Positions 3,316 to 16,064 of a DNA stretch of 40,197 nucleotides are shown one piece after another. The DNA comes from a virus. The stretch covers positions 1-40,197 of IMG/VR virus record IMGVR_UViG_3300005529_000020. One strand, 5' to 3'. Under the pieces are notes generated by a model. It saw nothing but the letters and a program-made list of their open reading frames with translations, was not told the origin of the DNA and ran no database searches. Numbering within the stretch: position 1 is the first letter of the stretch; every line of letters starts with the position of its first letter. The translations under genes were made by a program, and so were the position numbers.

Positions 3316-3533
3316 GCTGCTGCCTCGCTGGTATGGGTGACGGGCTCCGCGTCGATCTGGGGGGTCTCGCAGTGCCAGCACTCGGGGCCGGGGTTGTACC
3401 GGGAAAGCTCGCCGCCACAGCGCTCGCATGGTCTGCCTGCTGCATAGGGGTAGCGCTGGCCTTTCGGTTGGCGCATCCAGCGTGGCTGGTTGTCGTGCGT
3501 CGGCAGAATGGCGTTGATGATGGCGTCGGTCAT
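3312..3533 (-). CDS. Small zinc-ribbon protein, 73 aa
   Basis: The C-terminal half has CERCGGELSRYNPGPECWHCE, that is C-x2-C-x11-C-x2-C, a four-cysteine zinc ribbon. The N-terminal 30 residues (MTDAIINAILPTHDNQPRWMRQPKG...) are polar. The ATG overlaps the preceding stop. Such ribbons in early phage proteins usually bind nucleic acid or a host protein; which one applies here is unknown. Confidence 0.7.
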   Translation of the reverse strand: MTDAIINAILPTHDNQPRWMRQPKGQRYPYAAGRPCERCGGELSRYNPGPECWHCETPQIDAEPVTHTSEAAA

Positions 3534-3904
3534 GCGGTGGTGAACTCGTCGACGGTGGGCGCGCCGGCGGCCTCGGCTTCGCTGGCGATCTGGGATTCGG
3601 CGAGGCGCAGGGCCTCGTCTCGCCGGGCTTCGCGAGCTCGGCGAGCTGCGACCCACGGCGGCGGCGACCAGGTCTTGGCCTGCTCGACACCGACGATCTG
3701 CTCGGACGGCGCGGGTCTGGTGCCGTCGGGGAGCGGCGGGAGTTGCTGTTCGGGTACGGCGAGCGGTGCTGCGCAGGGCTGGCCGGTGTCGGTGTGGTAG
3801 AGCAGTCCGTCTTGGCGGCGTTGGTAGCAGCCGCGGAACACGTTGCCGTCTCGGTCGCGGCCGCCGTCTCGCCACAGGATGGTGAGTTCGTGGTCGCGGT
3901 TCAT
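3530..3904 (-). CDS. Hypothetical protein downstream of replication initiator, 124 aa
   Basis: It starts MNRDHELTILWRDGGRDRDGNVFRGCYQRRQDGLLYHTDTG, probably a small beta-rich domain. A proline-rich linker and an alanine/arginine-rich helix (WVAARRAREARRDEALRLAESQIASEAEAAG) follow. The ATG overlaps the stop of the initiator gene (ATGA), so the two are coupled. It could be a replication partner by position, but nothing in the sequence proves it. Confidence 0.65.
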   Translation of the reverse strand: MNRDHELTILWRDGGRDRDGNVFRGCYQRRQDGLLYHTDTGQPCAAPLAVPEQQLPPLPDGTRPAPSEQIVGVEQAKTWSPPPWVAARRAREARRDEALRLAESQIASEAEAAGAPTVDEFTTA

Positions 3905-4665
3905 GTGACGGCCTGGCGGGCTTGGAGGACGCGGACGGCGTAGCGGGTCGGTGAGGCTGGGCTCTTGGCCTTGACGGCTTGGATGGCGTCGTAGACCTCG
4001 GCGGGGTTGAGGGGCGCGGCGAGTTTGTCGATCACCTTGGGCGTGCCGGCGTCGCGGTCGTGGCAGAGGTGCAGGAGCTGGTCGACTGCTGTGCCGAGTT
4101 CGCCGGTGAGGCTGGTCAGGTGGTCGCGCTTGGGTACGAGCGCGCCGGCGACGTTGATGGGGTGGAGCTCGTCGGGTTGGTGTTCATGGTCAGGGGGTTC
4201 GCCGGGGTGTGTGCCGTTCGAGTTGGCGCTACCACCTTCCGGGTTTTCTGACTGACCTTGGAGTACAGAAGGTTCTTCTGTTTCTGTTCTGCTCTCGCGA
4301 GCGCGCGAGGTCCTCGGATCCTCTAGACCAGCTCTAGAGTTTTGGTACGGATGCTCTAGAGATAATCCGATCCATCCGGCTCGGTTGAGCCGTTCGAGCG
4401 CAGGCATGAGGATATTTGCGCGTAGGCGAAGTGAACTGCGACAGCGACGCAACGAGACAGCTGCGACCTCCTTTTCGGCGTTGTTGCGGTCAGTTGCCGC
4501 CAGGATCCAGGCACCGTGCAGGACACCTCGATCGCCGGCGGAGAGGTCGAGGTACTCGTCGGTGGAGAGCAGTTCGAGGTACGTCTTGATCCAGCTGGGC
4601 GCGCGTCCGTCCTTGTAGTGCTGGAAGCGCTTCCAGTTCGGGATCGTGATGTACGGCTCGCTCAT
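3901..4665 (-). CDS. Phage replication initiator, O-like
   Basis: The 254-aa protein opens with YITIPNWKRFQHYKDGRAPSWIKTYLELLSTDEYLDLSAGDRGVLHGAWILAATDR, the winged-helix N-terminal domain of phage replication proteins (lambda O and actinophage initiators). Residues of about 100-165 are a polar, Ser/Glu/Pro-rich linker. The C-terminal 90 residues are helical (LTGELGTAVDQLLHLC...VYDAIQAVKAKSPASPTRYAVRVLQ), resembling a DnaD-like or helicase-loader-binding part. It should bind the origin and recruit host helicase. The linker-coding DNA carries iteron-like repeats (see 4255-4365). Its start overlaps the stop of the RuvC-like gene. Confidence 0.8.
   Translation of the reverse strand: MSEPYITIPNWKRFQHYKDGRAPSWIKTYLELLSTDEYLDLSAGDRGVLHGAWILAATDRNNAEKEVAAVSLRRCRSSLRLRANILMPALERLNRAGWIGLSLEHPYQNSRAGLEDPRTSRARESRTETEEPSVLQGQSENPEGGSANSNGTHPGEPPDHEHQPDELHPINVAGALVPKRDHLTSLTGELGTAVDQLLHLCHDRDAGTPKVIDKLAAPLNPAEVYDAIQAVKAKSPASPTRYAVRVLQARQAVT
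4255..4365. other. Candidate replication origin inside the initiator gene
   Basis: Within the linker-coding part of the initiator gene, palindromic TCTAGA occurs at 4322, 4333 and 4355, so the copies are spaced 11 and 22 bp, on one helical face. Two copies share the 9-mer GCTCTAGAG. Nearby are three TTCTG repeats (4276, 4282, 4287) and the palindrome CTCGCGAG. The stretch is visibly less GC rich than its surroundings. In lambda the origin iterons lie at the same place, inside gene O. The role here is inferred from that analogy. Confidence 0.5.
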
Positions 4666-5186
4666 GCGGCTGTCCCTGCGTGGTGTTGCCAGGTGAGGTG
4701 GCGCCCGGCGAGCGCGATCAGGAGCGCTTCGGCGGCGTGCTCGGAGAGGTTGAATGCGAGCTCCGGCTGCGCGAAGGTCAGGATCCAGTCACGCGCCCGC
4801 TGGATCGCCTCTTCCTTGGATGCGCGGGCTGGCATGTGGAGCGTCTGGCGCCAGTCTTGTGCGGTGATCCCGGTCGCCGAGCGGCGGGTTTGGGGGAAGC
4901 CGGTGGCGGCGATGATCGCGCCGTAGATCGGCAGGAGCGCTCGAGCTGCTGGCCAGCGGTGCGTATACGGCTCTTCGACCCACGTGCTGGAGATGGGGTG
5001 CCCGTCGACGTCTCCGATCAACTGGCGGGCGCCGGCGGCGGCTTGGACGATCCGGCCGGCCTGGTCTGCGTGTTTGGTGAAGACGAAGCGGCGGAGTGTG
5101 AGTGGTCGCAGGCCGGCGTCGGGGTCGGTGGGGATAATGGCCGCGTCGATCGCGTGCGAGCTGAAGTCGATACCGACCAGGTACAT
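4662..5186 (-). CDS. RuvC-like Holliday junction resolvase
   Basis: This 174-aa protein begins MYLVGIDFSSHAIDAAIIPTD, a RNase-H-fold first strand with catalytic Asp7. It has an acidic motif at residues 70-72 (WVEEP), followed by a helix (ARALLPIYGAIIAATGF) as in RuvC-type resolvases, and late acidic residues at 149 and 153 (SEHAAEALLIALAG). It is expected to resolve branched replication or recombination intermediates before packaging. Both ends overlap neighbouring genes. The length fits RuvC-like phage enzymes (150-190 aa). Confidence 0.75.
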   Translation of the reverse strand: MYLVGIDFSSHAIDAAIIPTDPDAGLRPLTLRRFVFTKHADQAGRIVQAAAGARQLIGDVDGHPISSTWVEEPYTHRWPAARALLPIYGAIIAATGFPQTRRSATGITAQDWRQTLHMPARASKEEAIQRARDWILTFAQPELAFNLSEHAAEALLIALAGRHLTWQHHAGTAA

Positions 5187-5371
5187 CAGCGCCGCCGCCG
5201 ATCACGGTTTAACTGGATCTCTTCCAAGATGGGATCCTGGAATGGCGAGGCGGCCGGGTCGTGCTGCGTGCCGTTTCGGGCGCGCCAGTCGGGGTCGCCG
5301 ATGATCCAGTGCGCGAGCAGGTGCAGCTGGTCGCTTGCCCAGTGGATGGTCCGTCCGATCGCGAGCCTCAT
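5186..5371 (-). CDS. Hypothetical protein, 61 aa
   Basis: It is a small basic protein, MRLAIGRTIHWASDQLHLLAHWIIGDPDWRARNG..., ending in RDRRRR. An N-terminal helix with several Trp/His residues is followed by a polar tail. The start overlaps the HNH stop (ATGA) and the stop overlaps the RuvC-like start. It has no recognised family. Coupling to the resolvase suggests a role in DNA processing, but that is a guess from position. Confidence 0.65.
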   Translation of the reverse strand: MRLAIGRTIHWASDQLHLLAHWIIGDPDWRARNGTQHDPAASPFQDPILEEIQLNRDRRRR

Positions 5372-5946
5372 GCGATCCGCTCCAGTGCGAGCAGCTCATC
5401 GAGTCGAGCCTCGACCTCCAGTCGAGATAGATCCTCACCGAGGTAGGCGAAGGCGTACCAGCCGGCGGCGTAGGGTTTGAACCAGTCGGAGTGCTCGAAT
5501 GGGTAGACGCGTTCGAGCAGGACGCGGCCTTGGATGGTGAGGTGGCAGCGTTGGCAGAGCGCGGCGAGGTTCCACCAGCGGCAGTCCCACTTGACGCCGT
5601 TGAGGTGGTGCACGGTCAGGATCCGCCACGCGGCCTGGACGCGCCCTGCGGCCATCAGGCCTCGCGCGGGTGGGCCGGGGTTGACGTCGCGCCACACGTC
5701 GTCTGTGCGCACCTGGAAGGGCCCGGCGTGGTCGCAGTGCGTGTCGCAGGGTGACCATTCGCCGCGGCCGTGCTGGCCGGTCTGGTAGGGGTGGTGGCAG
5801 CGGATGCAGCGGTGGCCGGCCTGCTGGCGTACCAGGTCCTTGATGCCGTGGTCGGTGAAGCCGTCGAGTTGTGACCAGGCGAGCGGGTAGCCGCTCGGGC
5901 CGAGCTCGTCGGGCGCGTAGATGCGGAAGATGGGGTCTGTGGTCAT
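5368..5946 (-). CDS. HNH-type endonuclease
   Basis: The 192-aa protein contains CIRCHHPY, further paired Cys/His residues (SPCDTHCDHAG) and the core LTVHHLNGVKWDCRWWNLAALCQRCHLTIQ. In that core the H-H-x-N-G-x5-C-x4-N-L-x2-L-C-x2-C-H pattern is a standard HNH nuclease with structural zinc. I chose the ATG at 5946 (MTTDPIF...) over an in-frame one at 5988, which lies in the hairpin region. It could be a homing-type endonuclease or a phage DNA-processing enzyme. It is one of four HNH-type genes in this genome. Confidence 0.8.
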   Translation of the reverse strand: MTTDPIFRIYAPDELGPSGYPLAWSQLDGFTDHGIKDLVRQQAGHRCIRCHHPYQTGQHGRGEWSPCDTHCDHAGPFQVRTDDVWRDVNPGPPARGLMAAGRVQAAWRILTVHHLNGVKWDCRWWNLAALCQRCHLTIQGRVLLERVYPFEHSDWFKPYAAGWYAFAYLGEDLSRLEVEARLDELLALERIA

Positions 5947-5955
5947 GGTGTGGTT

Positions 5956-5988
5956 GTGGGCGGCCGCCGGCAGGGTGCAGCCGCCCAC
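5956..5988 (-). terminator. Hairpin between protease-like and HNH genes
   Basis: GTGGGCGGC (5956-5964) pairs perfectly with GCCGCCCAC (5980-5988) around a 15-base loop, in one of the few gaps of the early block. It has no T run, so it may attenuate transcription rather than end it, or mask the ribosome site of the HNH gene ten bases downstream. Confidence 0.45.
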
Positions 5989-6000
5989 GCTTCAGCTGGC

Positions 6001-6756
6001 CTAGAGCGCGGCCAGGTCGGCTTGGAGTTGCTGCAGGTCGAGGCCGCGCGGCGACACGGCGTTCGGGTCGAGCATGTCGGTGCTCACATAGGCCCACGCC
6101 TCGTCGGCGTAGGTCTGGAGGAATGCGACTGACATCAGCTGCGTCTGGCCCCATGTGACGACCTCGAGGTGGTGACGCTTCGCGACGAGCGGGACGTAGT
6201 GGCCACCCTCGATCGGCGAGCCTTGGACGACTGTCCACATCTGGCCCTGGTTGAACTGGTCCATCGCGCTGGTCGGGAACTGGATGCCGAGACCGACGGC
6301 TTCGAGGAGGTAGGCGGCGTGGTAGACCTCGACGAGGTTGGTCGGGTCGATGCTTAGGTACGCGCCGATCTTGTGCCTGGCGCCGGCGGCGTCGCGGATC
6401 CCGATCTTCTGCCGATACGCGAGCGCGGTGTGCACATCCGTGCCCTGGTCTGTGGACGGGTCGGCGGGGTTGAAGCCGGTACACGCCGCGTAGTCAGAGA
6501 GGACGGCCTTGTCGGTGAACGTGACCGAGCTGCCGGCGGCTTTGCGCATGAGCATCGTTTCGTGGGCGGCGCCGGCCCAGACACAGTCGCCGTACTGGTC
6601 GTTCCCGAGCATCTGCCACCCGGCCTGCGTGTAGTACCCCTCGTAGCCCCACTGCGTCGGGATCGGCGGGAGCGCCGACGCGTCGACGTAGTCGCGGAGC
6701 TTGAGGTCGGTTGATCGTGGCGCGGCTGGCTGCTTGCCGAGCTTGAGCGTGGTCAT
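6001..6756 (-). CDS. Papain-like cysteine protease-fold protein, 251 aa
   Basis: It has MLGNDQYGDCVWAGAAHETMLM (Cys58 with an upstream Gln at 54 for the oxyanion hole), then GGHYVPLVAKR (His186) and VVTWGQTQLMS (third-residue region), in the order of C1-type peptidases. No signal peptide is present, so it acts in the cytoplasm or virion. The reading frame is fixed by an ATGA overlap with the upstream zinc-finger gene. The target is unknown; a host regulator or a phage protein is possible. A catalytically dead relative cannot be excluded from sequence alone. Confidence 0.6.
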   Translation of the reverse strand: MTTLKLGKQPAAPRSTDLKLRDYVDASALPPIPTQWGYEGYYTQAGWQMLGNDQYGDCVWAGAAHETMLMRKAAGSSVTFTDKAVLSDYAACTGFNPADPSTDQGTDVHTALAYRQKIGIRDAAGARHKIGAYLSIDPTNLVEVYHAAYLLEAVGLGIQFPTSAMDQFNQGQMWTVVQGSPIEGGHYVPLVAKRHHLEVVTWGQTQLMSVAFLQTYADEAWAYVSTDMLDPNAVSPRGLDLQQLQADLAAL

Positions 6757-7145
6757 GGCTGCTCCTGGAAGTCGGGGTGCTTGGTGTGCATGTGCCGGCC
6801 GAGGTTTTGGAAGGTGCGGTTGCAGCACGGGCAGACGCCGCCGGCGATGCGTTTGCGGGTCTTGGTGAGCTGGCCCTTGGTGGCCGAGTGCGAACGTCGC
6901 TCGGCGGCCAGGCGCTCCTCCTCCTGGCGCAGCCACTCCTTGTACCGGTCGCGCTCCTCGCGGGCCTTCTCGGCGTCGCTCTTGCCCTTGTAGACAAGGC
7001 TGTGACCGTTCGGACACCACCACCCGTCATGCTTGCGGCGGCGCTCCTGATCCCAGTGCTCGGGGACGGCGAACTGCATGCCGCATGACCCGCAGCTGGT
7101 GGTGACGAGCACCTGCTCACGGATGAGCGTGTCGCCGACCGGCAT
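6753..7145 (-). CDS. Zinc-finger protein with coiled coil, 130 aa
   Basis: It has three parts. An N-terminal ribbon uses SCGSCGM and WWCPNGH. A charged helix of about 40 residues (SDAEKAREERDRYKEWLRQEEERLAAERR) is probably a coiled coil. A C-terminal finger VCPCCNRTFQNLGRHMHTKHPDF is of C-x2-C-x8-H-x4-H type. Such proteins bind nucleic acid. Its stop overlaps the cysteine-protease gene, so the two may act together. No specific function is recognised. Confidence 0.7.
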   Translation of the reverse strand: MPVGDTLIREQVLVTTSCGSCGMQFAVPEHWDQERRRKHDGWWCPNGHSLVYKGKSDAEKAREERDRYKEWLRQEEERLAAERRSHSATKGQLTKTRKRIAGGVCPCCNRTFQNLGRHMHTKHPDFQEQP

Positions 7146-7147
7146 GG

Positions 7148-7711
7148 CTACTCGTCCTCGGCCGGCGCTGCGCCTTCAGCGTCGAGCTGCCAGGAGCTGA
7201 GGGTGCTGGCGCCGAGTTTGACGACGGCGACTGTGGAGTTGCGGTCGCGGCGGCGGCGGCGGTGGAAGCCGGCGCGGTCGGATTCGAAGCGGACGGTGAC
7301 GGTCCCGCCGCGACCCAAATGGAGGTCACGGATCAGCGCGACGTGCTCGGGGTCGGTGCGGTCGAGGGTGATCTCGCCGCCGAGGCCGATCGCGATCTCG
7401 TCGACGCGTTGCCCATCGGGCGTGGTGAGTTTCAGTTCGGGCGAGTCGTATTCGGCGGCGGCGAACAGCTCGTCCTCGCCGGCGGGCCCGGTCGCCTGGC
7501 CGGGCTTCGCATCGCCGCCGCTGCCGTTCTCGCGCTTGGCCTTGTAGTAGGCGGCGCGGATCTGGCCTTCGGTGCCTTCGAGTTCGAGCGCGGCCGCGGC
7601 GAAGGCGTCGTTGATCGACTCCTCGTTGGGCCGGTCATCCACCCGGCCGAGAAGCCAGGCGACGTCGTCGTGGGTGGGCGTCCATTTGGCGGGACGCGTC
7701 TTGGTGGGCAT
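7148..7711 (-). CDS. Hypothetical protein, 187 aa
   Basis: The first 65 residues (PAKWTPTHDDVAWLLGRVDDRPNEESINDAFAAAALELEGTEGQIRAAYYKAKR) look like a helical SANT/Myb- or HTH-like domain. A Gly-rich linker follows, then a beta-rich part (GGEITLDRTDPEHVALIRDLHLGRGGTVTVRFESDRAGF) and an acidic tail. The combination suggests DNA binding, but I recognise no family. It lies three bases from both neighbours in the early operon, with the zinc-finger gene downstream. Confidence 0.6.
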   Translation of the reverse strand: MPTKTRPAKWTPTHDDVAWLLGRVDDRPNEESINDAFAAAALELEGTEGQIRAAYYKAKRENGSGGDAKPGQATGPAGEDELFAAAEYDSPELKLTTPDGQRVDEIAIGLGGEITLDRTDPEHVALIRDLHLGRGGTVTVRFESDRAGFHRRRRRDRNSTVAVVKLGASTLSSWQLDAEGAAPAEDE

Positions 7712-7713
7712 GG

Positions 7714-8043
7714 CTAGTCCTCCGGGTCGGAATCGGGCAGCGACGGCTGCCGTGGTTTCGCCGGCTTGCGGCCGGACTTCGGCTTCTCATCCGCGGTCGC
7801 GTTTGTTGCGCGGACGACCATGTATCCGCGTCGGAACTCGTCGGGCTCGACGACGCTGGCCGTCGGCGGGGTGGTGCGGCTGTCGATCAGGACGTACTCG
7901 CCCTGGCGCCCGGTGAGTGGCTCGGGATGGCCGGGGAGCGACAGTTCGAAGTCGTGCGTCATCTGCTGCGCGAGCAGCGTGTCGCTCGGCCGGGCGCGTA
8001 CCTGGCGCAGGTCGAGCTCGGACAGTTCCAGGACGAGCTTCAT
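7714..8043 (-). CDS. Hypothetical protein, 109 aa
   Basis: MKLVLELSELDLRQVRARPSDTLLAQQ starts at an ATG with AGGAG seven bases upstream (GAGAGGAGCCTG), a well-placed ribosome site. The middle (GHPEPLTGRQGEYVLIDSRTTPPTASVVEPDEFRRGYMVV) is beta-rich and looks like a small barrel. The last 30 residues are Lys/Pro rich and end in an acidic DSDPED. It is perhaps a nucleic-acid-binding accessory protein. No family is recognised. Confidence 0.65.
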   Translation of the reverse strand: MKLVLELSELDLRQVRARPSDTLLAQQMTHDFELSLPGHPEPLTGRQGEYVLIDSRTTPPTASVVEPDEFRRGYMVVRATNATADEKPKSGRKPAKPRQPSLPDSDPED

Positions 8044-8053
8044 CAGGCTCCTC

Positions 8054-8917
8054 TCATGCGGTGACCACTTGGCCCCGCTTGGTTGAACACGCCGCGCAGT
8101 AGCGATCGCTCTGGCGGCCGTAGCGGCTGAGGACGGCGCCGCAGTCCTTGCAGCGGCGCCTCTCCGCCGCGAGCACATCCGCGCGCCGCTCAGACTCCGG
8201 TAACGGCGCCGTGACCGGCGCGTCCGTGATAGGCCTGGACACGAAGTCGGCGGCCGCTCTGCTGTGCCGCTCACGCCGCTCGCGCAGCTCCGCGTCGACC
8301 GGGTCAGGCTTCGGGGCGACGTGCGGCGCGGTCGGGTCGCGGCGCTGCACGCGCTCGCGTGGCGGTTGGGCTGCTCGCGGCGTGTGGCCCTTCCGCGCCC
8401 GGTACCGGTCGTTGGCCTCACGCTTGCATTGGCGGCACTTCCGCCAGCCGCCCTTCGAGATGTAGACGTTGTCGCCGGTCAGCGCGTGCCCATTGCGGCA
8501 GCGATCGGGCGCCGGCTCGGTGCTATGCGTTTGTGCATCGCCGGTTGGCGTGATCTGGTCAGCCACGCGGGTCGGGGCTTCCGCTTCATGCATATCTGCA
8601 TGAGCCGGCGCGGCAGTGGTCGCTTCGGCCAGGTCGCCGAGCGCGCGATCCAACCGAGCCTGCAGGTCGACGAGCTGCTCGGCCTGGCGCGCCAACAGCG
8701 CGCCCTGCTCCGCCGCGTGCGCTTCCAGGCCAGCCACGCGCCCAGCGTCCACATCCACCGGCGCGGGCATCAGCTGCAACGGCTCGCTCGTCTCAAACAG
8801 GAGATCGAGCGCCGACGTCCACACGAACGACCAATCCGACCGGCGCTTCACCGTCCAGCTACGCGACTCCCACGGCAACTCGGCGATCAGGCCCTCGAGC
8901 AGCGGGTGCGATGTCAC
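8054..8917 (-). CDS. Large zinc-binding protein with coiled coil, 287 aa
   Basis: The GTG start overlaps the HNH stop (GTGA). The N-terminal 60 residues form a Trp-rich domain (LPWESRSWTVKRRSDWSFVW), followed by a coiled coil (LEAHAAEQGALLARQAEQLVDLQARLDRAL). A zinc module follows, CRNGHALTGDNVY...WRKCRQCKREANDRYRARKG, of the type found beside HNH homing nucleases. A final four-Cys ribbon is CKDCGAVLSRYGRQSDRYCAAC. No HNH catalytic core is visible. It is probably a DNA-binding protein; a degenerate homing nuclease is possible. Its linker DNA holds a 7-bp inverted repeat (8586-8603). Confidence 0.6.
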   Translation of the reverse strand: MTSHPLLEGLIAELPWESRSWTVKRRSDWSFVWTSALDLLFETSEPLQLMPAPVDVDAGRVAGLEAHAAEQGALLARQAEQLVDLQARLDRALGDLAEATTAAPAHADMHEAEAPTRVADQITPTGDAQTHSTEPAPDRCRNGHALTGDNVYISKGGWRKCRQCKREANDRYRARKGHTPRAAQPPRERVQRRDPTAPHVAPKPDPVDAELRERRERHSRAAADFVSRPITDAPVTAPLPESERRADVLAAERRRCKDCGAVLSRYGRQSDRYCAACSTKRGQVVTA

Positions 8918-9474
8918 GCTGAAAGCGCCTCTCGGCGGAGCCATGCATGGAGCCGGTTGTGGTCTCGCTGGCTGAGCGCGATCAGGTGGTCAACGTTCAG
9001 GCACCGCGGCTGGCCGCAGAGGTGGTGCAGGTGCATCCCGACCGGCAGCGGGCCGTGCACAGCCTCGTAGGCGGCACGGTGCGCGAGGATCGATCCGCCG
9101 GCGCCGTCGCCCTTGGTCGGGTAGCCCTTCGAGTTGACCGCGCCGCCCCAGATCAGGCATGGCGTGGGGTGGCCGTTGTCGGTCGGTGTGATCGGGACGC
9201 GGCTTTCAAGCTCGCGTGTCCGGTTCGTCACGCGGGCGCTGTGGCCCTTGACGTACTGGACGTGCTGGCCTTTCCGCCAGCCGCGCTTCGCGCTGGTGAC
9301 GGGCGCGATCGGCGTTGTCTCGCCGCATCCGCAGCGGCAGAGTCCTGTAGGGTTTAGCGCTCCGTCTAGGGCCTTTGTCGCGCCATTCGGCGCCGCATGA
9401 ATCTGACGCCGATTCGGTGCAGGCGGAATCTGGGATGTCGCATGGTTACGGGGATCGCGACTGGTGTTCGACAT
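8914..9474 (-). CDS. HNH homing-type endonuclease
   Basis: The 186-aa protein has an N-terminal CRCGCGETTPIAP...GWRKGQHVQYVKGHSAR zinc motif, common in phage HNH nucleases. Its core is CLIWGGAVNSKGYP...LAHRAAYEAVHGPLPVGMHLHHLCGQPRCLNVDHLIALSQRDHNRLH, the H-H-L-C-x3-R-C-x-N-x2-H-L pattern of homing HNH enzymes. Its ATG overlaps the integrase stop (TGATG). It probably acts as a mobile intron-like element inserted between integrase and the 287-aa gene. I chose the start from the overlap. Confidence 0.85.
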   Translation of the reverse strand: MSNTSRDPRNHATSQIPPAPNRRQIHAAPNGATKALDGALNPTGLCRCGCGETTPIAPVTSAKRGWRKGQHVQYVKGHSARVTNRTRELESRVPITPTDNGHPTPCLIWGGAVNSKGYPTKGDGAGGSILAHRAAYEAVHGPLPVGMHLHHLCGQPRCLNVDHLIALSQRDHNRLHAWLRREALSA

Positions 9475-10502
9475 CAACCGTTGCCGTCCCTCTTCGCAGC
9501 TCGGAGCGCGAGGCCCTCGGCCAGGTCGCCGATGTCGAGGTGGCCGTAGATGTCGGCGGTTGTCGAGATGGAGGCGTGGCCGGCCATCATCTGGGCGAGC
9601 TTGATGTTCCCGGTCGCGCGGAGGACGTCGGTGATCGCTGTGTGGCGGGCGTGGTGCATCGAGTTCTCGCCGCGCGGGTCGAGGCCGGCCAGGTGGAGGC
9701 AGCGAGCCCACCATGCGTGGATGCCGGAGTCGGACAGCGGCGCGTGGCGGTCTTCCCAGGTGACGCGGAGGCCGTCAAGGGTCTGGCCGATGTGCTCGGG
9801 GTAGAGCAGGTACTCGTCGGGCCACCCATCGGAGAGCTTTCGCTGTGCCCAGTGGTCGTCGAGCAGCTGGCGGAGCCACGGGTCGCTGATCGGCAGCGTG
9901 CGGATCTTGCCGCCCTTCGCCCCCCTGGCGATGCGTAGCTGGGCGCGGTGCTGGTCGTAGCGACCGAGTTGGAGCATGCGGAGCTCGCCGCGGCGCAGGC
10001 CGAGTCCGAAGAGGCAGCCGAGGGCGGCCTGCTCGCGGCTGCGGGGGTTCGCGTCGAAGACGAGCCGGGCCGTGTCCGGGTGAAAGACGGTGCGTTCGAC
10101 GTGGGCGAGCTTGGGGCGGCGGATCTTCCGCATCGGGTTCGCCTGGATGTAGCCCTCGAAGTCGCACCACTTGAAGAAGTCGTTCAGGACGGTGTGCGAC
10201 TTGCCGCGCGTGCGGGCTTCGGAGTGGCCCCACCGCTCGTACCAGAACTCGCGCACGGCCAGGTGGGCGTCGCTAGTGCCGAACCGTTCGATTGGCCAGT
10301 CGGGGAAGTGCAGGCAGAGCGCAGCCAGGATGTACTCGTAGTCACCCACTGTTCTGGGCCTGGCACCGCCTTCAATGGTCTTCCACTGGAGGTAGCGGGT
10401 GACGTGCGAGCCGATGGCGGTGCGCTCGTAAAGAGTGCGATCCAACGCGGCTTCGCGGATGACCCTACTGGCATCGACCAGCTCCTGCAGGGTCACCGTC
10501 AC
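9474..10502 (-). CDS. int: Tyrosine integrase
   Basis: This 342-aa site-specific recombinase has a SAM-like core-binding domain at about residues 25-130 (RTRGKSHTVLNDFFKWCDFEGYIQANP). The catalytic domain carries Arg170 (GLRRGELRML), Lys199 (GAKGGKIRTLP), the HxxR box His283/Arg286 (MHHARHTAI), His309 (AGHASISTTADIYGH) and the nucleophile Tyr319, so all active-site residues are present. It inserts and excises the prophage. The GTG start overlaps the upstream stop. Oddly, it lies inside a packed operon with overlaps on both sides, leaving no neighbouring space for attP. Confidence 0.92.
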   Translation of the reverse strand: MTVTLQELVDASRVIREAALDRTLYERTAIGSHVTRYLQWKTIEGGARPRTVGDYEYILAALCLHFPDWPIERFGTSDAHLAVREFWYERWGHSEARTRGKSHTVLNDFFKWCDFEGYIQANPMRKIRRPKLAHVERTVFHPDTARLVFDANPRSREQAALGCLFGLGLRRGELRMLQLGRYDQHRAQLRIARGAKGGKIRTLPISDPWLRQLLDDHWAQRKLSDGWPDEYLLYPEHIGQTLDGLRVTWEDRHAPLSDSGIHAWWARCLHLAGLDPRGENSMHHARHTAITDVLRATGNIKLAQMMAGHASISTTADIYGHLDIGDLAEGLALRAAKRDGNG

Positions 10503-10897
10503 GCGGTGCCTGCCTGTTGTTCGTGCCACTCGTCGATACATTCCGACTCCCACCCATCCCTTCGCCCGCACGTCGGGCACTCGCGCTCCGAGGAGGGGTC
10601 GTAGGGGCAGGCGGAGACGGTGTCGTGGTCGCGGCACACTTCGTATTGGTCGCCGGTGGGGCCGACGATGACGCGGCACCTGGCCTGGGGGAGTGAGAGG
10701 AGGAGCGCTGTGGCGTGGAGGTCGCGCTGCTCGCCGAGTCGCGTCGTCTCGCGGAGGCGGTCTGTGAGGCTGACTTGGAGTGTCGTCGAGTATTTGAGGA
10801 GGGCGAGTTGGCCGCAGGTGCGGTGCAGCTCGCGGGCGTGGCGGAGGACGTCGCGGTCTTCGCTGATTGGTTGGATGAGCTGGAGCTGCTGCGCCAT
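10499..10897 (-). CDS. Hypothetical protein with C-terminal zinc motif, 132 aa
   Basis: The N-terminal 75 residues are helical (QLQLIQPISEDRDVLRHARELHRTCGQLALLKYSTT...). A short beta segment follows (CRVIVGPTGDQYEVCRDHD). The C-terminus has ECPTCGRRDGWESECIDEWHEQQ, a Cys/His cluster that may bind zinc. Both ends overlap neighbours (ATGA upstream, GTGA into int). A role in regulating integrase is possible from its position just upstream, but nothing in the sequence shows it. Confidence 0.6.
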   Translation of the reverse strand: MAQQLQLIQPISEDRDVLRHARELHRTCGQLALLKYSTTLQVSLTDRLRETTRLGEQRDLHATALLLSLPQARCRVIVGPTGDQYEVCRDHDTVSACPYDPSSERECPTCGRRDGWESECIDEWHEQQAGTA

Positions 10898-12645: not shown

Positions 12646-12821
12646 CGCTGCCGCCTCCGAGACTCTTCCCAGCGGCGTGGCCGCGGCGGGCGGGTCGACC
12701 CCCAGTCGGCGATGGCGATCAGCCAGAGCGCGGCGAAGATGGCGGCGAGGATGTAGGGCGTCATGCTGCGTACCTCGTTGATGGTGTGGACTCGGGCGGA
12801 GAGCAGGAGCAGCGCGGTCAT
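12642..12821 (-). CDS. Small membrane protein, 59 aa (or 40 aa)
   Basis: The longest reading starts at an ATG overlapping the upstream TGA (MTALLLLSARVHTINEV). An in-frame ATG at 12764 has GAGG eight bases upstream and gives a cleaner product, MTPYILAAIFAALWLIAIADWG, one transmembrane helix followed by an Arg/Pro-rich cytoplasmic tail. It is probably an inner-membrane peptide. The function is unknown. The tail overlaps the start of the following gene. Confidence 0.55.
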   Translation of the reverse strand: MTALLLLSARVHTINEVRSMTPYILAAIFAALWLIAIADWGSTRPPRPRRWEESRRRQR

Positions 12822-14005
12822 TCGGGGTTCCTGACGGAGTCGCTGTCGAGGGACTGCTGCTGCTCGCCGGGCTCCTCAGATACGGGCAACTCCTCCTGCG
12901 CGTGGGCATCGCTTGGAGGAGCGGGGGCGCTCGTACCAGCACCGTCCTCGGCGGATGACGAGTCCGCCTCTGATGCTCTGGCCCGGAGCTCGGCGAGCAG
13001 CGCTTCCAAATCTCGTGCCTCCTCGCCGTAGCGCTCGGCGAGCGTCCGCGCGGTCATCCCCGACCGGCCGCCCCACGCGAGCTGCTTCAGATCGACGCGG
13101 TCAGCCTCGCTGAGCGCCTTGTAGCGCTCGCTGATCGCGGTGACCAGCGGAACGGTCTGCGCCTCAGCTTCCAGCGCCGCGTCCTGCTCCTGGGCGGTCG
13201 GCGAGATCAGCGGGTCGCGCTCGGCGTCGATCTCGGGCGCCGGCGGCGGCTCCAACTGGCGGCGATCGCCAGCGCCCAGCTGTGGCGCCGCTGAGCGTTC
13301 GTCGATGACCTCGCGGAACGTGCGGCCCGTCTCGACCGACACCGGGTGCAGCGTGTACACCGTCTTCGACTTCCCATCCGGCGCGACCGGTGTCGGGACG
13401 AGCGCCAGGTCGAACTCGAAACCGAGCAGGCTCCCACGATGCTTCTCGACGAACAGCAGGTAGTCGCGCAGCTCGCGCTCCGAGATCTCCGACCCCGTGT
13501 CGAGCTCCCACAGCCCGGGTGCGAGGCGCAGATCGGGCAGGCCCAGCCACAGCGTGTGCGTGAGCTGGCAGTGGCCACGGTCATCCAGGGCGAGGCCCTC
13601 AGCGGCGCACCGGCACGGGCCGTGCTCCCACCCGCCACCCTCCAGCCGTACCGAGCATTCCGTGCCGCTGCAGATCCGCTTGAGCTTCGACGCGCCGTAG
13701 AGCCGCCACGCCGATTCGAGGACGTGCTCGACCTGGTCGTGGAACAGCATCACGTGCAGCGTCTTGGGCTGCTCGCCGTACACCTCGCGGAACGCCTCGA
13801 CCGCGGCCGGGCTCGTGATGCCGCTCTCGTCGGTGTCGACGCGGAAGTAGTCGACCGCCTTCGGATAGGTCACGGTGCGCCCGTTCTTCGTGGTCTCGGC
13901 CTGGACGCCCAACCTGATCTTGCCGAGCCTGGGTGGTCGGATCGGTGCTTCGCGATCGACGGGGACGCGGTGACGGGTCGGGCCCTTGGATGCAGTCGCG
14001 CTCAT
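12818..14005 (-). CDS. gp3-like recombination-associated protein, 395 aa
   Basis: The N-terminal 220 residues resemble the gp3-like/RDF-like family of actinophages: PRLGKIRLGVQAETTKNGRTVTYPKAVDYF, a Cys cluster (CSGTECSVRLEGGGWEHGPCRCAAEG...GHCQLTHTLWLGLPDL), and GLWELDTGSEISERELRDYLLFVEKHRGSLLGFEFDL. The rest is a linker, a helical part (LVTAISERYKALSEADRVDLKQL) and an acidic tail. Members accompany Cas4-like nucleases and probably work in annealing recombination; some, such as phiC31 gp3, control integrase direction. The family call is from memory and needs a profile search. Confidence 0.6.
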   Translation of the reverse strand: MSATASKGPTRHRVPVDREAPIRPPRLGKIRLGVQAETTKNGRTVTYPKAVDYFRVDTDESGITSPAAVEAFREVYGEQPKTLHVMLFHDQVEHVLESAWRLYGASKLKRICSGTECSVRLEGGGWEHGPCRCAAEGLALDDRGHCQLTHTLWLGLPDLRLAPGLWELDTGSEISERELRDYLLFVEKHRGSLLGFEFDLALVPTPVAPDGKSKTVYTLHPVSVETGRTFREVIDERSAAPQLGAGDRRQLEPPPAPEIDAERDPLISPTAQEQDAALEAEAQTVPLVTAISERYKALSEADRVDLKQLAWGGRSGMTARTLAERYGEEARDLEALLAELRARASEADSSSAEDGAGTSAPAPPSDAHAQEELPVSEEPGEQQQSLDSDSVRNPE

Positions 14006-15160: not shown

Positions 15161-15816
15161 GGCTTCTCGTCCCACCTTTCGATGAAGGCTTGGATCCAGG
15201 CCTGGGCGTCGCGGGCGGCGGTGATGAATCGCGCCGCGTCGCCGATCGGCCTGGGAGGGTCATGGATCAGCGCGACGACGTCGTCGGGCTGGCCAAGGCT
15301 CGGGATCTCGCGCAACAGGCGATGGGCGGCTCCGACGCGGGCCTGCCAGTCACCGTCGGCGTACGCCGGCGTCCGGTCGGGCCGCGCGGGCGGATCGGCG
15401 AGGAACCGCTTGCGCGCAGCGTCATGCTGCTCCGCGACATCGGCGACGGCCTGCCGCACGATCGCAGCGGTCGGCTTGCCGTTCCCCGCGTGCTGCGCTT
15501 CCGACCAGGCCTCGCGCATCAACTCGGGCCGATCCCGCAGCGGCGCAAGCTCACGCGCCTGCCGCTCATTCACCGGACTGTCTCCCATGGGAGACAGCGC
15601 TTCGGCGACCTTGCCCGCATCGATCAGGCGGTAGGCGTGTGCCCGCTCAAGGTTCCAACGGTCACGGCAGTACGCCTCGAAGGAGTCATGGCCGGCCAGG
15701 TACAGCCGCGAGTCGCGGATCTCCAACAGCGCGGCCCCGACCTCCAGGAACGTCGCCAGGCCGTGCTCGACGACGTTCTCAAGCTCGGCCAGGCGGGTCG
15801 CTACGACCGCGCTCAC
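15157..15816 (-). CDS. ParB/DUF3102-like DNA-binding protein, 219 aa
   Basis: Residues of about 5-90 carry LEVGAALLEIRDSRLYLAGHDSFEAYCRDRWNLERAHAYRLIDAGKVAEAL, then SPMGDSPVNERQARELAPL. That pattern is common in plasmid and phage proteins annotated as ParB-like or DUF3102-like and contains a helix-turn-helix-like segment (WNLERAHAYRLI). The remainder is helical, ending in EIPSLGQPDDVVALIHDPP... It is the second gene of the lytic operon, directly after the Cro-like gene. The SPMGD codons form a perfect 20-bp palindrome that could be its own binding site. The family name is from memory. Confidence 0.6.
   Translation of the reverse strand: MSAVVATRLAELENVVEHGLATFLEVGAALLEIRDSRLYLAGHDSFEAYCRDRWNLERAHAYRLIDAGKVAEALSPMGDSPVNERQARELAPLRDRPELMREAWSEAQHAGNGKPTAAIVRQAVADVAEQHDAARKRFLADPPARPDRTPAYADGDWQARVGAAHRLLREIPSLGQPDDVVALIHDPPRPIGDAARFITAARDAQAWIQAFIERWDEKP
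15578..15597. promoter_or_regulatory. Perfect 20-bp palindrome in the ParB-like gene
   Basis: CTGTCTCCCATGGGAGACAG reads the same on both strands without a mismatch. It encodes the SPMGDS turn of the ParB-like protein. A site of this size and symmetry inside a DNA-binding protein's own gene is a candidate operator or parS-like site. Function not shown. Confidence 0.5.
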
Positions 15817-16064
15817 GCGACGGCCTCGTCGCGGTAGAACCAGGCGAGCGGAAACCCAGTCGCCCGAGCCCAGTCAGCGACGCGCTGGTCGGAGGCTCGG
15901 CGCTTGCCGGACTCGATGTACCGGATGGCGCGGTCCGACTTCAGTCCGAGGATCTGGGCGAGCTCTGCTTGTTCGAGCCCGCTGCGTTCCCGGGCTTCCT
16001 TGAGCTTTGCAGGGAGTTCGCTGCTTGACACGCCCTGGTTGTTCCGGTACGGTTCCTGTGACAT
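15813..16064 (-). CDS. Cro-like XRE-family regulator, 83 aa
   Basis: It carries an HTH of the XRE type (LKEARERSGLEQAELAQILGLKSDRAIRYIESGKRRAS) and ends with ADWARATGFPLAWFYRDEAVA. It is divergent from the repressor at 16111 and is the first gene of the early lytic operon, so it is the Cro or early switch protein. Its promoter -10 box ends only eight bases before the ATG, so the message is probably leaderless. Both switch proteins share the HIRY/AIRYxESG recognition region and the G(F/Y)P-x2-WFY motif, so they are paralogues. The GTGA overlap with the next gene sits at its stop. Confidence 0.82.
   Translation of the reverse strand: MSQEPYRNNQGVSSSELPAKLKEARERSGLEQAELAQILGLKSDRAIRYIESGKRRASDQRVADWARATGFPLAWFYRDEAVA
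16025..16053 (+). promoter_or_regulatory. Promoter for the repressor
   Basis: TTGACA at 16025-16030, a 17-base spacer, and TACGGT at 16048-16053 point rightward, giving a start near 16060 and a leader of about 50 bases to the repressor GTG. It lies inside the 5' part of the Cro-like gene. GTTCCTGT, the inverse of the operator motif, overlaps the -10 box, so autoregulation is likely. Confidence 0.65.

Follow-up and report, generated by a model that had tools for sequence, protein, structure and literature searches.

An array of phased palindromes within a phage initiator gene is a candidate replication origin

The window, that is, the whole stretch of 40,197 bases analysed, is a viral record that encodes head, portal, terminase, tail, integrase and repressor-like proteins, almost entirely on the minus strand. 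A predicted replication initiator gene of 254 aa is located at 3901–4665 (minus strand), with a winged-helix N domain, a disordered linker and a helical C-terminus. The predicted winged-helix DNA-binding domain comprises codons 1–103 (4357–4665, minus strand) and carries the motif NWKRFQHYKDGRAPSWIK; this assignment is based on alignments and on an AlphaFold model that is confident up to approximately residue 103 (pLDDT up to 96), has low confidence over residues ~110–220 and ends in helices. Several HNH endonuclease-like genes are found in and around the early region (5368–9714; 176–652). The window also encodes a Gp3-like recombination directionality factor (Pfam PF18897) together with an integrase of the tyrosine recombinase type (12818–14005 and 9474–10679, both on the minus strand). 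Such factors are otherwise known from serine-integrase phages.

The initiator matched PHROG 26426, 'replication protein', weakly but specifically (E = 2e-4, residues 10–66), and its best viral fold match was PhiPLPE gp04, a 'putative replication protein' (E = 1e-4). Alignments and the PhiPLPE gp04 fold match revealed the N-terminal winged-helix domain with the motif NWxxFQHYxDRxPPWIK that the protein has in common with PHROG 26426 proteins (gp04 of Iodobacter phage PhiPLPE and its relatives in Cr-LKS3, PBR31, DC33 and phiV208), at an identity to family members of only ~19–33%. A first-pass annotation of this DNA had named the protein an O-like initiator. Membership of the lambda O family was not detected: Pfam gave no lambda O match for the window initiator or its relatives, and O-like PHROG matches were confined to some relatives and to their C-termini. 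Searches of the PDB by fold and by sequence with the window initiator returned nothing significant, and positions 3500–5500 showed no DNA similarity to phages. No helicase or loader gene was recognised beside the initiator gene.

Inside this gene, between the DNA-binding and the C-terminal parts, TCTAGA occurs three times (4322–4327, 4333–4338 and 4355–4360), and it is absent from the rest of the 40,197 bp. The start-to-start steps of 11 and 22 bp, as reported earlier, are better described as an 11-bp grid with one vacant place. The CTAG cores lie at gene offsets 306 (iteron 1, CTCTAGAG, 4354–4361, minus strand), 328 (iteron 3, CTCTAGAG, 4332–4339, minus strand) and 339 (iteron 4, GTCTAGAG, 4321–4328, minus strand), and place 317 is vacant. 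The array falls in a locally less GC-rich stretch coding for a polar linker, as the first-pass annotation had stated: GC drops to 0.57 compared with ~0.68 on both flanks, and the linker corresponds to the low-confidence part of the model, though the TCTAGA copy nearest the domain touches the end of the confident N domain. A GC-skew switch, which had been proposed as a check, was not seen at the array, and skew was uninformative in the window. The TCTAGA copies are not a protein repeat, because their codon phases differ (2, 0 and 2). Their codons are rare ones (CTA, 3.8% of Leu; AGA, 2.2% of Arg; TCT, 3.6% of Ser), and the codon adaptation of the gene declines from 0.8–0.99 at its start to 0.20–0.41 over codons 91–145.

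For an estimate of chance occurrence, codons were shuffled with the protein fixed. The earlier argument that three 6-mers are unlikely to arise by chance is weak on its own, since some 6-mer was present three times within 44 bp in 26–37% of the shuffles and a palindromic one in 8–18%. The phased palindromic triple fared differently: a triple on an 11-bp grid, a grid chosen for this test after the data had been seen, appeared in 0.06–0.14% of the shuffles, and TCTAGA itself three times in at most 0.02%. Together with a one-base-shifted overlap (CTCTAG), TCTAGA is the sole non-overlapping 6-mer triple on such a grid in the 40 kb. A general lag-11 test of the window gene by itself was not significant (p = 0.08). 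Thus, the significance of the array derives from the specific phased-palindrome test and from the relatives, not from the general test. That the three copies are a product of chance regardless of the relatives appears highly improbable; the lag-11 result for the gene alone and the vacant grid place would fit such an origin, but the phased palindromic triple (p ~0.001) is unique in 40 kb and lies at the position of the family array, beside a 17-mer of the family.

This 17-bp string, CTCGCGCGCTCGCGAGA (4293–4309, minus strand; hairpin-capable, CTCGCG-CGCT-CGCGAG), is conserved between phages and is an element missing from the first-pass annotation. It is situated between the cores and a CAGAA/GAA tract coding for RTETEE (4272–4292, minus strand). 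Searched as bare DNA against 2.9 million viral contigs, CTCGCGCGCTCGCGAGA was found at 14 loci, 13 of which are verified initiator-family genes: 12 recognised members with CTAG cores just upstream and one member (L219) with GATATC-type cores. The remaining locus (L224) is cut by a contig end, has CTAG and a purine tract and is likely a family copy. The reversed string of the same composition, used as a control, gave six loci and none in the family. The translation of CTCGCGCGCTCGCGAGA is LALARSRE or PRALARE in relatives compared with SRARES in the window, and because the reading frame differs between phages, the string is conserved as DNA.

The three TTCTG repeats noticed previously are present on the plus strand (4276, 4282 and 4287), with a reverse copy at 4266 and a further one at 4246. 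Their nature has to be corrected, as they are the form in which the window carries the GAGACA/TETE tract of the family, the CAGAA/GAA tract being the counterpart of (GAGACA)n. An inverted repeat, ACAGAAG-N3-CTTCTGT (4265–4281, unstranded), overlaps the CAGAA tract, and the DNA fold of the 78 nt around it had a z of −2.5. In family genes, threonine is encoded by ACA in 162 of 174 cases (93%) within the tract compared with 207 of 774 (27%) elsewhere in those genes.

Whole-protein searches with the window initiator identified three viral loci and initially none in named phages or genomes; subsequent protein searches yielded, among the matches listed, 80 viral loci with the N-domain motif, and a viral protein scan gave at least 474 relatives of the initiator. 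In PHROG 26426-type genes, palindromic cores spaced by 11 bp are found where the window gene has its array. These cores are mostly of the GCTAGC class (TGCTAGCA), while one clade has GATATC (TGATATCA), and CTCTAGAG is the class of the window and of two further phages. A second array is frequent in relatives around offsets 117–154, within the domain-coding DNA. Among 48 non-redundant genes, 31 CTAG pairs were spaced by 11 bp, compared with 0.84 expected from 200 synonymous shuffles (maximum 4), and additional peaks were evident at 21–22 and 33 bp. Self-similarity before the tract reached 19.8/33 at lag 11 and 12.8–14.7 at all other lags except 22. The window matches this design, with cores 11 bp apart before a repeat tract, a variant core and one vacant place. 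Hence the expectation of the first-pass annotation, that sites and spacing are kept while the amino acids drift, holds for a wider motif than TCTAGA, namely palindromes centred on CTAG or GATATC and placed on an 11-bp grid.

Searches for TCTAGA arrays on DNA alone gave two further family genes of the window's class, L192 and L319, in both of which a purine tract comes after the TCTAGA-class cores. The core by itself does not identify the family, because, of the 119 stretches with strict TCTAGA triples in viral contigs only L192 belongs to the family. Arrays of these core classes are absent from the family genes L014, L034 and L059. L014 has CGCTACA every 45 bp at gene offsets 440–640, followed by a long GAGACA tract and then a CG-repeat string. 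In L034 and L059, the initiator linker is interrupted by an HNH endonuclease-like domain (codons ~115–170) exactly where relatives have the array, and the array itself is either absent or degenerate. Both genes were considered as array-less non-initiator controls and rejected, as they are initiators with an HNH domain in the linker.

Conserved residues such as DASxxLA, DDINxIS and TETETE, if coded by similar DNA, might give the appearance of an array, and 53 of the 67 in-gene phased pairs of relatives do begin in codon phase 0. Nevertheless, the signal is lost in synonymous shuffles that preserve the protein, the window has the same design with other residues and phases, the 17-mer is read in different frames and threonine in the tract is 93% ACA. 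We give this explanation next to no credence, and for the family the comparative data already contradict it. At the level of sequence, the comparison establishes that phased cores, hairpin string and purine tract form one DNA element under selection as DNA, and that this element is tied to the initiator family.

In the relatives, one N domain is joined to differing C-termini (DnaT-like, Phg_2220_C or O-like), which match PHROGs for replication initiation, primosomal and helicase-loader proteins. Such variety, together with a tract and a 17-mer common to distant phages, could indicate a recombination joint, at which C-terminal modules are swapped via shared linker DNA and repeats are kept since they recombine. 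This explanation would not lead one to expect palindromic cores phased at 11 bp, a further array upstream in the domain-coding DNA or changes of class in which the dyad is retained, and as the sole function of the array it is very unlikely; the stretch may serve as a recombination joint in addition to an origin.

In a tree of the N domain, the iteron class clusters by clade (10 changes compared with 26.6 when shuffled). The TCTAGA class probably arose more than once, because its three rows do not form one clade. Residue 17 (window codon 4615–4617) agreed with the iteron class in 77 of 77 genes, being Phe in all 21 GATATC genes and Tyr in all 56 GCTAGC genes. This agreement reflects only two to three independent changes and includes L003 and L041, which are nested in the other clade.

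Helically phased palindromic sites are typical of operators as well, and the phage encodes a repressor-like regulator (15813–16064). The array might accordingly be an in-gene operator at which the initiator or the phage repressor shuts off transcription or replication, with the origin located elsewhere. The distribution of the sites argues against this. In the protein-fetched loci, 67 phased pairs were located in the gene (43 kb) and four outside (493 kb), a 190-fold higher density; all four lie downstream, and no phased pairs of these cores were found upstream of the initiator gene in any locus. Moreover, the array is usually accompanied by the repeat tract and always by a replication-type protein, not by a regulator gene, and the interior of the initiator gene is the classical location of lambda-type origins (PMC7466680). 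We therefore regard an operator as unlikely.

The first-pass annotation had likened the arrangement to lambda ori within gene O. This likeness holds for the in-gene iterons, and fails for the 19-bp iterons, the AT-rich tract, the Pfam O match and the neighbouring loader. As in the lambda-type origins of lambda, P22 and Stx phages, several dyad-symmetric iterons occupy the central part of the initiator gene, with a distinct tract after them, and the window protein would share with the gene O system an N domain for DNA binding and a C-terminus for helicase loading. Lambda iterons are 19-bp imperfect inverted repeats (PMC7466680), whereas this family has 8-bp cores on a grid with steps of 11 bp. 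Where lambda has an AT-rich unwinding tract, the family has a purine repeat (CAGAA/GAGACA) and a hairpin-forming string, and often a second array in domain-coding DNA. A loader or helicase neighbour is seen in PhiPLPE, whose initiator gene adjoins a DnaC-like loader gene, and in Cr-LKS3, where it adjoins a replicative helicase gene. Among PhiPLPE, Cr-LKS3, PBR31, DC33 and phiV208, four of five have in-gene phased pairs and phiV208 has separate GCTAGC cores; the window differs from this group by its CTCTAGAG class. The literature searched contained no reported origin for these phages, and the open-access literature no published description of this iteron design. The predicted origin of Francisella phage KIRK has four iterons inside fhv_0043, a gene with a Phg_2220_C C-terminus (PMC7924643). 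Compared by description, in-gene iterons and this C-terminus, the latter present in one family member here, are shared, and the KIRK origin differs in its location, given as an AT-rich region (PMC7924643).

Taken together, we consider it likely that positions 4265–4361 of the window are the replication origin of this phage, inside its initiator gene. Judged from sequence comparison, the principle is most likely that of lambda-type in-gene origins, though the iterons are built differently. That the winged-helix N domain binds the cores, with several dimers on one helix face, is suggested by helical phasing, by dyad symmetry and by an iteron class that tracks the N domain. By analogy with lambda O, the filled array would wrap or strain the DNA, and the neighbouring hairpin and purine tract would open. 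The C-terminal part may then recruit the replicative helicase or its loader, since the C-termini of relatives are DnaT-, DnaD- or O-like and some of the genes adjoin a DnaC-like loader or DnaB helicase gene. Because one stretch of DNA holds both, origin and origin-binding domain would travel and diverge as one, and the variant CTCTAGAG class of the window would be accounted for in this way. Against an origin speak the missing skew switch, the lack of a neighbouring helicase or loader, the weak PHROG match, the vacant second grid place, an adjacent tract that is purine-rich and not AT-rich, and the few family genes without an array. Binding, unwinding or replication data were not found for any family member.

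For the family as a whole, we tentatively propose, with somewhat less than even confidence, that a large uncharacterised group of initiators carries a portable cassette of origin and origin-binding domain in coding DNA. Its iteron design would be new, with 8-bp palindromes every 11 bp, a hairpin string in some members and a hexanucleotide purine tract, and its DNA specificity would be switched by very few residues. If true, this would allow replication origins to be located by a sequence rule in hundreds of uncultured phages, given the at least 474 relatives, and would provide a compact system in which to follow how the specificities of an initiator and of its sites, both contained in one stretch of DNA, change together.
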